NCBI RefSeq assembly: GCF_000301075.1
Contig: NZ_JH932293.1
Coordinates: 1,710,692 to 1,774,691, forward strand
Source: Bergeyella zoohelcum ATCC 43767
GTDB lineage: Bacteria; Bacteroidota; Bacteroidia; Flavobacteriales; Weeksellaceae
Length of the DNA stretch: 64,000 nt
Direction of reading: 5' to 3'
Under the pieces are notes generated by a model, which ran no database searches, had not been told where the DNA came from, and worked only from the letters and a program-made list of their open reading frames with translations. Made by a program: the position numbers and the translations under genes. Below are positions 1 to 6,398 of the stretch, in pieces. Every line of letters begins with the position of its first letter. The first letter of the stretch is position 1.

Positions 1-2026
1 TTTTAATTAATTTTTTTGCTACTTGCTCCCCATTCGCTAAAGTAGCTTTAACGATGTACATTCCTTTTGGAAGAGAAGCAATGTTCAGCTGATTTTCCTT
101 TCCTTCAAGAACCAACTGCCCACCTGCATTGTACACTTCTACTTTTCCTATTTTTTTGTCGGTTTGGAAATGTACTATGTCCGAAGCAGGATTTGGATAT
201 ACCAAGAAGTTCGCATCGTTTTTATTGATTTCTTTAGTAGCGAGGGTAATGTCTTGCCATTTTACATTATCAATGATTAATGCTTTATGTGGCTGAGTGC
301 CGAAGCTAAACTTCATTGCTACTCTTGTATGTCCTGCGGGGAATGTAATTGCTGGGGTAGAGAATGAACCTATTGCATTTACTGGGAAAGAAGCTACTGG
401 CTGGAAAGAAGCCAAATCATTCGCATCAGTAACGGTTCCTATTACGATGGTTTCTGTTCCTGTGATGCTTGCTGGAGAGCCTGCAAGTGGAACCTCAATA
501 TCAAATTTTAAGTGATGTGTTCCATTCTTTGTGGTTACCTCTGGCGTTACTAGGGTGATATCATTCGTAATGCCCATTCCTTTGTAGATTTGCATTGCTT
601 TATCTGGCAATGGAATATTTCCATTACTTCCTGCTGCATTGGTTAAGGACACTGTAGGGAAAGTAGTATAGTTTCCATTCCAACAAGAAGTAGAGAACAG
701 CTGAGCCGTAGTTAAACTTTCAAAATCAAAACTGAAATCTGCTACTGGTGAACAAGAAGTGGCTGGAGGTGTAGTTCCTACAATGTTCAATGTGTACTCT
801 TCTACCTGTCCAGCTCTTAGGTTAGTATCACAAGGTCCAGTGATAGAATTCGGAGCAGAAGGATTAGACAATGCATTCACATTGGTATTTTTTACTAATC
901 TCATTTTGGTAGCTCCAGTCATTGCACTTGCAGGAATCATGATATTAGAAGTAACCGTATGTGCATTGGCAGGATTACCTGGCTGTATTCTTCCTAAGTA
1001 GAAAGCTTCTCCTGCATCACCGAAATCTCCATTTTGATTAAAATCAATATAAGCTACTACATCACTTGGGAAAGTGCTAGAAGGTCCTTTTACAGAAATA
1101 GGATAGGTAGCACCTTTATTTACATCTGTAGAAATGGAGGTAAAGTCTTCATATACAGGAGTAGTTCCCGAAGTGAAAGGAGAGGTATTAGAAATGGTAT
1201 TAAAAATCACTTGCGTAATCATATTACTATCCACACCATACTGGAAATTAGGCAAACAAGTAGCAGGTGTCCAAGTAAAAGTAAGTCCGCTTGGAGGGAG
1301 GATGGTGTTTTTAGTGTAAATTTCATCGCTTTTAGCTGTACCTTGGGTAGTCATGGTCCAGTTATTCGCATTAGAGCCTTCGGCTTTTCTTGTGGCAAAG
1401 TCAGCAGCAGTGCTTCCTCTTAAGCCTACACTGAAATAACGATCATCTGGATCACCAATAGCCGTTACATTATACTTTTTCTCTATCAGCCCATTCTCGT
1501 GTAGGCTGAGCTGGAAATTCATTTCAAAACGATTGTTATCATAGCCACTCCATTGGCTTCTTGTAAAATCTTTCCATTGGATAGTATAGATCCTGTTAGG
1601 AGCTGTTCCGCTCACTTCGTAAGAAATTTCCCCTTGCTTTCCTCCTATGTTTAAACCTTCTAAGTCATCACTTATAATGGCTATGATTTCTTTATTATGC
1701 GTATTGTTTGCAGATAAAGGTTTATAGTGATAGTGGTAACTATTGGTAGCCAAAGGCGTTCCGAAAGTTACGAAACCATCTGTATAAATGTTTACAGAGG
1801 TATAATCTTGCCCATTAAAATTGAACGAAAAAGGAAGCGACTGTGTGAATAGTGCTGTATCTAAAGAATTACCTGCGGTAGCCACAGAAGCTACTACTGT
1901 AGGATTTGCTAAAGGAGTATAAGTTCCTTGAGATTGAGAGAAAGTGTAACGAGACACCTGTGCATGGAGGGCAGTGGTAGCAAAAGCTGTTGCTAATAAT
2001 GCCAACTTAAAATAATTCTTTTTCAT
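1..2026 (-). CDS. T9SS-exported GEVED-domain protein (C-terminus cut by window edge)
   Basis: The reading frame starts at 2026 with a signal peptide (MKKNYFKLALLATAFATTALHAQ) and stays open to base 1, so about 675 residues are visible. The last visible residues (VAKKLIK) match the usual end of a type A T9SS sorting domain, so probably only one or two residues and the stop are missing. The middle (about residues 320-415) has the DFNQNGDFGDAGE and GQVEEYTL motifs of a GEVED domain. The next section (about 430-580) looks like a beta-sandwich adhesion/MAM-like module. The last 80 residues hold the sorting signal with YPNPASD. Inference: it is exported by T9SS and attached to or released from the cell surface. 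The ligand is unknown. A TAAATTTG box at 2045-2052 on the minus strand fits a promoter just upstream. Confidence 0.85.
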   Translation of the reverse strand, partial: MKKNYFKLALLATAFATTALHAQVSRYTFSQSQGTYTPLANPTVVASVATAGNSLDTALFTQSLPFSFNFNGQDYTSVNIYTDGFVTFGTPLATNSYHYHYKPLSANNTHNKEIIAIISDDLEGLNIGGKQGEISYEVSGTAPNRIYTIQWKDFTRSQWSGYDNNRFEMNFQLSLHENGLIEKKYNVTAIGDPDDRYFSVGLRGSTAADFATRKAEGSNANNWTMTTQGTAKSDEIYTKNTILPPSGLTFTWTPATCLPNFQYGVDSNMITQVIFNTISNTSPFTSGTTPVYEDFTSISTDVNKGATYPISVKGPSSTFPSDVVAYIDFNQNGDFGDAGEAFYLGRIQPGNPANAHTVTSNIMIPASAMTGATKMRLVKNTNVNALSNPSAPNSITGPCDTNLRAGQVEEYTLNIVGTTPPATSCSPVADFSFDFESLTTAQLFSTSCWNGNYTTFPTVSLTNAAGSNGNIPLPDKAMQIYKGMGITNDITLVTPEVTTKNGTHHLKFDIEVPLAGSPASITGTETIVIGTVTDANDLASFQPVASFPVNAIGSFSTPAITFPAGHTRVAMKFSFGTQPHKALIIDNVKWQDITLATKEINKNDANFLVYPNPASDIVHFQTDKKIGKVEVYNAGGQLVLEGKENQLNIASLPKGMYIVKATLANGEQVAKKLIK

Positions 2027-2754: not shown

Positions 2755-3234
2755 TATCCCTCTACTTTAAATGAAAAACTAAATGCTGTGGACTGAGGGC
2801 TGGGTTTTTGAGCCTATTTTTATTTTTTCTCTGTCCAATGATATTTTATTAACTCTATTTTACGAATACTTTGCTGGCATCCACTTACCAAACAACTCCT
2901 TTTTTTCATCTGATATATAATACCTTGCGAATACGAATAGATTGAGCAATTCTTTTTGAGTGATTTCTAGCCTTACCTAAATCTATTTCATTTTTTTTGG
3001 AATAGTTATCTCCTCAAAATAAAAAGACCCTCCCAAAAGTATTGGGCAGTTCCTTTATTTATCCGCTATAGAGTTTCCTATCTATCACCTGCAAATCTCC
3101 GAATATTTGGTGGTTTCCTTTTGTAGGAAAATCTCCTGCACGGATGTTTGAGGTTTTCCTGTGGTAGGAAAGCTCCCTGCAAGGATGCATGGTAAAGGTA
3201 GGAAAGTTTTTGTTAATGACAATGTAAAAATAAA
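2755..3234. other. 480-bp gene-free stretch with degenerate repeats
   Basis: No convincing gene on either strand. The half nearest the HEPN gene contains the degenerate repeat described separately (3068-3215). The rest is AT-rich, with nothing recognisable apart from short A/T runs. Confidence 0.5.
3068..3215. repeat. Degenerate ~38-bp repeats with TAGGAAA / CTCCTGCA cores
   Basis: A unit with the order TTTTCCT, GGTAGGAAA, CTCCCTGCAAGGATG occurs clearly twice (about 3115-3147 and 3154-3187). Weaker copies lie on both sides (TTTCCTATC and ACCTGCAAATCTCC near 3070-3100, and GGTAGGAAAG near 3196). Each unit can fold through TTTCC and GGAAA. It looks like a decayed intergenic repeat, not a gene. 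Confidence 0.5.
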
Positions 3235-4044
3235 CTATTTCCCTTGCAAATAATTGATAAAAGCACTACAAAAAATCAACATAAAATACGCTTCTCGTTC
3301 AGTAGGAACATAATTACTTTCTTTTTTCATTAGAGCGTGGCGAATACCTGTTTCTTTCTGATTGGTATATGCATAAAGTTGAGTACAAGCGTTTTCAAAC
3401 ATCTGTGGAATAATAATATTTGCTTCTTTAAGCTTTTTTAATGCTTTCCCTAATGTTTGTTCTCCTGTTTTTTCACGGAGATAAGCCTCTACCGCTGAAA
3501 TAGATTCTTTTATAGAGTTTTGATAATCACCTTGTGGTTTTACAGCATATAATTCTAATGCCTTACTCAAATGTTTCGCTACATTATTTTCAGATTTTTC
3601 AATAGCATTTTCTATCGTTTTTATTTCTTCTTCCGAAGTAATTTCTAGGATTTTATTCTCAACAATACGATAGGCAAAATTCAACCTTTCAAAATGAAAA
3701 TTTAACTCAGTAATAAAATCCTCTTTTATAGCATCACCATATTTCTGACTATAAAAATTTAATAACTCTATAGTAAATTCTATTATATCTAATTTTCTAT
3801 ACCATTTTTCATTACTATCTTCAATAAATGATGTCGCTACAATATTATTCCAGAATTTACCTTCTCTCTGATTCAAAAAATATGTCCACAAAGATTTTTC
3901 TACTCCTTTATATAATTCACTATTTCTATTTCTTAATTTATCAAAACAAGAACATATTGCATTTTGTATTTCTGGGGTTATTTTTTCACGGATAATAACC
4001 TCCGAAGGCTTTGTATAGCCATATCTCTCTGAAAATAAACTCAT
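3235..4044 (-). CDS. AbiJ-like abortive-infection protein with HEPN-type C-terminal domain
   Basis: 269 residues. The N-terminus (FSERYGYTKPSEVIIREKIT, then PEIQNAI) resembles AbiJ N-terminal domain type 4. The second half (about 155-269) carries ISAVEAYLREKTG, LGKALKKL, LYAYTNQKETGIRHAL and a C-terminal CSAFINYL helix, typical of the helical HEPN-like domains at the end of abortive-infection proteins. HEPN domains are often RNases whose Arg and His residues are catalytic. Here the GIRHA segment is the likely counterpart, although Arg and His are adjacent and do not have the canonical R-x4-6-H spacing. It lies 38 bases downstream of a 111-residue gene, probably in one operon. The expected role is phage-triggered growth arrest. 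The family call is from memory of motifs, so moderate. Confidence 0.65.
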   Translation of the reverse strand: MSLFSERYGYTKPSEVIIREKITPEIQNAICSCFDKLRNRNSELYKGVEKSLWTYFLNQREGKFWNNIVATSFIEDSNEKWYRKLDIIEFTIELLNFYSQKYGDAIKEDFITELNFHFERLNFAYRIVENKILEITSEEEIKTIENAIEKSENNVAKHLSKALELYAVKPQGDYQNSIKESISAVEAYLREKTGEQTLGKALKKLKEANIIIPQMFENACTQLYAYTNQKETGIRHALMKKESNYVPTEREAYFMLIFCSAFINYLQGK

Positions 4045-4082
4045 ATTTGTTTTTATTATAGTTTTATTAAAAGGGAAAAAAA

Positions 4083-4418
4083 TTATATTTCATCTCCCAC
4101 CCATTTATATTTTCTAACTAATTCTTCCTTCTTTGTCTCAAAAGTTCTTTTATCATTATTGATTACTTTTTTCAGTAACCACCCCGCGTCTTTACCTGCT
4201 GCTCCAACATCTTTATGTTTTTCCCATAAGGCAATTAAGGGAGTTCCTTCCCAATAATAATTATCACCTCCCATTAAATCTCTAATAGAAAACCACTCAT
4301 CGGAGCGATTTTTACACCAACAATATACAGCACCTTGTAAAAAGTTCATTATTGCGTTTTTTTGTTCATCAGAAATTCCATAAACATCTCTGATAGTTTC
4401 ATTTGTTTTAAAAGACAT
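4083..4418 (-). CDS. Hypothetical 111-residue protein, upstream partner of the HEPN gene
   Basis: No family recognised. The sequence has a helical N-terminus (SDEQKNAIMNFLQGAVYCW), a Trp/Asp-rich centre (DEWFSIRDLMGG, then YYWEGTPL) and a basic C-terminus (KKEELVRKYKWVGDEI). There is no signal peptide or membrane segment, so it should be cytosolic. It begins 81 bases after the dnaK stop, beyond a terminator hairpin, and is followed after 38 bases by the AbiJ-like gene. Co-transcription suggests it is an antitoxin, sensor or effector partner, but no sequence feature proves this. Confidence 0.6.
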   Translation of the reverse strand: MSFKTNETIRDVYGISDEQKNAIMNFLQGAVYCWCKNRSDEWFSIRDLMGGDNYYWEGTPLIALWEKHKDVGAAGKDAGWLLKKVINNDKRTFETKKEELVRKYKWVGDEI

Positions 4419-4447
4419 ATATTTTTCATTTTAATCAGTTAAACAAA

Positions 4448-4473
4448 CCCCACCCAATTAGTATTAGGTGGGG
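4448..4473 (-). terminator. dnaK terminator
   Basis: On the minus strand a CCCCACC arm, about 12 bases of loop including an AATACTAATT internal match, and a GGTGGGG arm are followed by TTTGTTT. It lies between dnaK and the 111-residue gene. A second small hairpin (GCGGAG/CTCCGC, 4486-4500) overlaps the dnaK stop codon. Confidence 0.75.
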
Positions 4474-4499
4474 CTATTGTTGCCTGCGGAGGCTCTCCG

Positions 4500-6398
<1,899 letters not shown>

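Follow-up and report, generated by a model that had tools for sequence, protein, structure and literature searches.

A catalogued AbiJ-NTD4/HEPN-like defence candidate and a small mobile-element gene side by side, not as a conserved pair, behind dnaK of Bergeyella zoohelcum

The AbiJ proteins are the described family to which the locus reported here is most readily compared, in particular those carrying the AbiJ-NTD4 domain, defined by Anantharaman et al. in 2013 (PMC3710099); it has been proposed that the N-terminal domains (NTDs) of AbiJ keep the HEPN toxin inactive until viral components are met, and both an Ex3[KR] motif and a catalytic His are among the features described for HEPN (PMC3710099). 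Within the AbiJ proteins, those devoid of an NTD are more often found in restriction-modification (R-M) operons (PMC3710099). PADLOC lists a single-gene phage defence candidate, PDC-S32, for which a literature search returned no paper and no test of function; as to small genes standing before defence genes, CapK and CapS have been described as regulators encoded ahead of diverse immune operons (PMC13373217).

The DNA analysed (hereafter the window) is a stretch of 64,000 nucleotides from B. zoohelcum ATCC 43767, in which a sequence-only reading had singled out two open reading frames on the same strand, of 269 and 111 residues, as an undescribed defence or toxin-antitoxin pair inserted beside the housekeeping gene dnaK. 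Both frames and their place directly behind dnaK were recovered as described (Table 1): the 111-residue gene begins 81 bp behind the dnaK stop and the HEPN gene follows 38 bp further. The stretch between dnaK and the first of them (4419-4499) folds with an energy of -30.9 kcal/mol (z -5.5), and its hairpin is probably the dnaK terminator. The GC content of the HEPN gene (0.29) and of the 111-residue gene (0.32) is low compared to that of dnaK (0.43) and of the window (0.36), and the 3' flank of dnaK in 12 relatives is occupied by differing genes, which makes it a variable spot; none of the 12 carries PDC-S32 or the 111-residue/HEPN pair there. Three of the genomes compared (G002, G011 and G012; loci L050, L053 and L054) display related-looking elements behind dnaK, with an adjoining zinc-finger/HTH-like gene and, in two of the three, an integrase-like gene, all assigned by eye and not by profile; a similar zinc-finger/HTH and integrase-like pair lies behind an mnmE-like gene in L078. 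The dnaK end occurs only once in the window, and the stretch 4440-4560 has no further copy in the genome beyond short chance matches, so that no att duplication is visible, and a site-specific element integrated at the 3' end of dnaK was rejected as a candidate on this ground. An inserted cassette is nevertheless a fair description of the locus. The decayed repeats noticed nearby are real, being 73-81% identical to units at two further sites in the genome (G000:C1:1682698-1683044 and 2271178-2271496), where the units are about 41 bp apart; TRF detects no repeat array in the window. About 3.7 kb before the window (L069:2677-6269, G000:C1 about 1703368-1706960), a nuclease of the DUF1016 type (PDC-S02, E 5e-136) is encoded together with a DEAD-type, PbeA/type IV-like helicase; the two separate pyrB-like from carA-like genes, which gives the impression of an insertion into the pyrimidine operon.

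Table 1. Features of the site behind dnaK (window coordinates; residue numbers refer to the 269-residue protein)
Feature	Position	Strand	Basis	Remarks
Degenerate copy of an intergenic repeat	3100..3187	.	genome search	outside the genes
269-residue protein gene, AbiJ_NTD4 + C-terminal HEPN-like (PDC-S32)	3235..4044	-	ORF + Pfam + PADLOC	
AbiJ_NTD4 domain	residues 3-149		Pfam	
HEPN-like helical domain	residues about 154-266			carries E186-x3-R190, T227-N228, R235-H236
Gap between the two genes	4045..4082	-		38 bp; co-transcription possible
111-residue protein gene	4083..4418	-	ORF	small Bacteroidota family; winged-helix-like secondary-structure pattern (putative, low confidence)
Strong hairpin, then GTTTGTTT (T-rich tail)	4447..4474	-		probably dnaK terminator; ends about 28 bp before the start codon of the 111-residue gene
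dnaK	4500..6383	-		housekeeping anchor of the variable site

The AbiJ-type N-terminus of the 269-residue protein, recognised by the sequence-only reading, is matched by Pfam AbiJ_NTD4 with an E-value of 2.8e-27 (96.5 bits, above the curated cut-off of 34), and PADLOC PDC-S32 profiles cover its full length (E 2e-93 and 6e-69), the former, PDLC04996, aligning residues 2-269 to positions 3-275 of 280; the match to the CBY_0614 model, NF046078, is weak (25.7 bits, below the cut-off of 150). Judged by these profiles, the protein is an already catalogued candidate defence protein (PDC-S32; AbiJ-NTD4, PMC3710099) and probably an anti-phage suicide RNase of a known family, so that the label "undescribed" does not hold for it. 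Its distribution is patchy, PDC-S32 being found in 12 of the 395 Bacteroidota genomes sampled and in 2 of 246 genomes of B. zoohelcum's own family, and the gene is therefore regarded as accessory; together with its absence behind dnaK in the relatives, this agrees with the earlier view of an AbiJ/HEPN-type accessory protein, probably involved in defence. The AlphaFold model predicts helices at a poor pLDDT of 54, and a fold search with it gave no match; the alignments available for modelling the two proteins comprised no more than two and five sequences.

The explanation that we consider likely is that two independent accessory genes share the variable site behind dnaK, namely an AbiJ-NTD4/HEPN effector and a separate mobile cargo gene. 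It draws on homology, motif conservation, genomic contexts and the absence of pairing (see below), and what we infer beyond these is the RNase activity, the trigger and the role of the 111-residue protein. The 269-residue protein would be a single-gene abortive-infection effector, whose N-terminal AbiJ_NTD4 may sense infection or be silenced by a host partner, and whose C-terminal HEPN dimer would cut RNA by means of H236, with R235 and E186, bringing the infected cell to a stop. The 111-residue gene would be cargo of its own and no dedicated antitoxin; its product is most likely either a small regulator that binds DNA or a factor acting singly in defence or anti-defence.

The genomic context of the HEPN relatives is of particular relevance to the silencing of such an effector. 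In four of the five closest relatives the gene forms part of a type I R-M locus: in L003, L005 and L006, whose HEPN genes are 56-60% identical, hsdM lies upstream and hsdS downstream, the spacing to hsdS being 6 bp in L003, an overlap in L005 and 6 bp in L006, and in L007 an hsdM-like gene lies upstream together with the recombinase also seen upstream in L006, the contig ending 37 codons into the HEPN gene. The L004 gene follows a gene of the XRE HTH type in a region that resembles a prophage (by eye), and more distant relatives are solitary or plasmid-borne. Being built into type I R-M loci before hsdS, the HEPN proteins of the close relatives are probably PrrC-like back-ups silenced by R-M subunits, a guard model that this linkage renders directly testable; a member bearing NTD4 inside hsdMS loci is also a small extension of the described pattern, since it is AbiJ proteins devoid of NTDs that more often occur in R-M operons (PMC3710099). 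The window gene has no R-M genes in cis, the type I system of the genome being located about 160 kb away (G000:C1:1868000-1884000); it may have left the R-M context and work either alone or in trans with that system. The R-M locus itself (L096:4636-13555) comprises hsdM, RhuM, Fic-like, hsdS, DUF1016-like and hsdR-like genes, of which hsdS alone was called by profile and the others by comparison or by eye; its RhuM-, Fic- and DUF1016-like genes lie between hsdM and hsdR.

The 111-residue protein was held to be unassignable, and so it is in the libraries searched, having no significant match in Pfam, NCBIfam, PADLOC, PHROGs or PDB; the profile search proposed for both proteins was thus fruitful for the HEPN protein only. 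It belongs to a small family found at eleven loci, the window included, with relatives 48-60% identical; two weak matches with internal stops (G472 and G778) were left out of this count. The gene is rare: it occurs in 1 of 199 genomes (B. zoohelcum's own only), in 3 of 395 genomes of the phylum and 4 of 299 in the genus of L062 (one remnant in each set), and in 5 of 301 in the family of L006, while three scans of viral contigs yielded one relative and phage scans none. Members of this family turn up repeatedly in conjugative elements and in defence islands and, being in no library searched, represent a cheap screen target.

That the 111-residue protein is a single-gene defence or anti-defence factor of conjugative and integrative elements, which owes its defence-gene neighbours solely to the tendency of such elements to accumulate them, is a possibility that we retain tentatively. 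It is consistent with a constant position within the tra region of conjugative elements of Prevotella, first seen in a Prevotella nigrescens plasmid (L021) and, with the same lysozyme-then-small-gene order, in four further genomes (L089-L092), for a total of five Prevotella-type loci; with an inverted "moron" position, on the opposite strand, among the phage-tail/baseplate genes of a viral contig (L020); and with an integrase-type element in which the gene lies between CoiA-like genes (L078). A further relative is found beside an IS-type transposase (L077). Against this possibility, the protein has no library match and no known anti-defence relative. In L021 (NZ_CP072340.1), a replicon with a plasmid annotation, the 111-residue gene is immediately followed by a complete 5S rRNA gene (5778-5889).

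It is doubtful, though compatible with several neighbourhoods, that the protein is instead a portable regulator of adjoining defence genes, the HEPN gene included, in a role comparable to that of CapK/CapS (PMC13373217). The gene stands on the same strand directly before a defence-type gene in the window, in L062, from a genome of the same order (144 bp before a Z1/Helicase_II ATPase), and in L093, where it lies directly behind Kiwa kwaAB and 117 bp before an AbiL/AriA-like ATPase with DUF4276; moreover, the helix/strand order predicted for it resembles, and its helix-strand alternation suggests, a winged helix. However, the loci are few and the association is a plain tally with no null model, the five conjugative-element loci have no adjoining defence gene, and there is no significant fold match, the model searched being poor (pLDDT 44). 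The MarR profile is non-significant (E 0.055, then 0.44 with more sequences) and the pI of 6.6 is atypical of a DNA binder. Assignment as a winged helix by fold search was set aside, the models being too poor and the SAMHD1 matches (TM about 0.28) meaningless. The surroundings of the L093 gene (L093:3547-14850) form a dense defence island with AlbA/pAgo-like, Kiwa kwaAB, 111-residue, and AbiL/AriA-like ATPase and DUF4276 genes. Unlikely as a whole is the bolder statement that the family is an unrecognised portable protein of Bacteroidota mobile elements, regulating or counteracting adjoining defence genes (AbiJ-HEPN, Z1 ATPase, Kiwa/AbiL-like) and that PDC-S32 is an HEPN RNase with its Arg moved beside the catalytic His.

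This latter point originates from the adjacent Arg-His pair (R235-H236) within "GIRHA" of the 269-residue protein, which was correctly noticed in the sequence-only reading but is no oddity: in an alignment of 20 HEPN homologues, uncertain in the loop, R235 is found in 17 and H236 in 19, so that the adjacent pair is typical of the protein's family. In the same alignment E186, the acid expected on helix 2 from the Ex3[KR] motif, is present in all 20 sequences and [KR]190 in 19. The Rx4-6H motif expected where helix 3 ends is absent from the protein, no His occurring 4-6 residues after R235 (T227...R235-H236), and for this reason the domain is named HEPN-like and not a canonical HEPN RNase. Thr or Ala occupies the position of the canonical Arg in 17 of the 20 homologues. 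L015-L017, close kin of one another and the three that lack R235, have Arg at the position of T227, eight residues earlier, in the form Y-R-N-x6-H. R227 and R235 are therefore mutually exclusive across the 20 sequences, suggesting an active-site Arg that was moved rather than lost, and its relocation beside the catalytic His within the clade would be the simplest reading, leaving PDC-S32 with a clear active-site question. The missing Rx4-6H and the Thr/Ala substitution could also point to a non-catalytic domain with an RNA-binding or structural role, but we regard a dead enzyme as improbable, given that none of Arg, His and the acidic residue is lost, the Arg being shifted to adjoin the His, and that the two Arg positions exclude each other.

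As to the pair, each gene occurs alone elsewhere, with different neighbours, and the two are therefore no conserved pair. The HEPN (PDC-S32) gene is near the 111-residue gene at 0 of the 10 other loci of the latter, the very count by which the sequence-only reading had proposed that its module could be refuted, and the 111-residue gene is found in 0 of the 13 other PDC-S32 genomes, a search with no positive control of its own, although the same type of query worked in other genome sets. The conserved adjacency typical of type II toxin-antitoxin genes is thus lacking, the window being the only locus examined where the two adjoin; the pair reading is not supported, and toxin-antitoxin pairing was ruled out by co-occurrence. 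A true two-gene toxin-antitoxin or defence module, in which the upstream protein neutralises or arms an HEPN toxin, is very improbable, since the shared strand, the short gap, the antitoxin-first order, the low GC and the lineage-specific nature of both genes are outweighed by these separate occurrences and by the pairing of close HEPN relatives with hsdS instead. Given the gap and the common strand, an operon specific to this lineage is conceivable; a promoter scan with the sigma-70 consensus, unsuited to Bacteroidota, gave matches no commoner than in shuffles.

With two independent accessory genes as the preferred reading, the locus comes down to two cargo genes of low GC, with putative mechanisms, that occupy the variable 3' flank of dnaK, and the interest shifts to the R-M linkage of the HEPN relatives, to the putatively relocated arginine and to the repeated occurrence of the 111-residue family in defence islands. 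Compared to PDC-S32, the 269-residue protein matches over its full length with no difference of substance, and its isolated copy, along with the R-M linkage of close relatives, is an addition to this catalogued candidate. With AbiJ carrying AbiJ-NTD4 (CBY_0614 type, PMC3710099) it shares the N-terminal AbiJ_NTD4, the C-terminal HEPN-like helices, Ex3[KR] and a catalytic-type His, but it differs in the adjacent R-H in place of Rx4-6H and in the weak NF046078 match. The PrrC/PrrI anticodon nuclease with type I R-M (PMC3710099) resembles the close relatives, which sit in hsdM-hsdS loci, whereas the 269-residue protein has no ABC ATPase domain and its gene in the window has no R-M partner in cis. 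With CapK/CapS (PMC13373217), the 111-residue gene shares the position of a small gene before unrelated defence genes, but it is one gene and not two, its regulation is putative and no recognisable homology is claimed.
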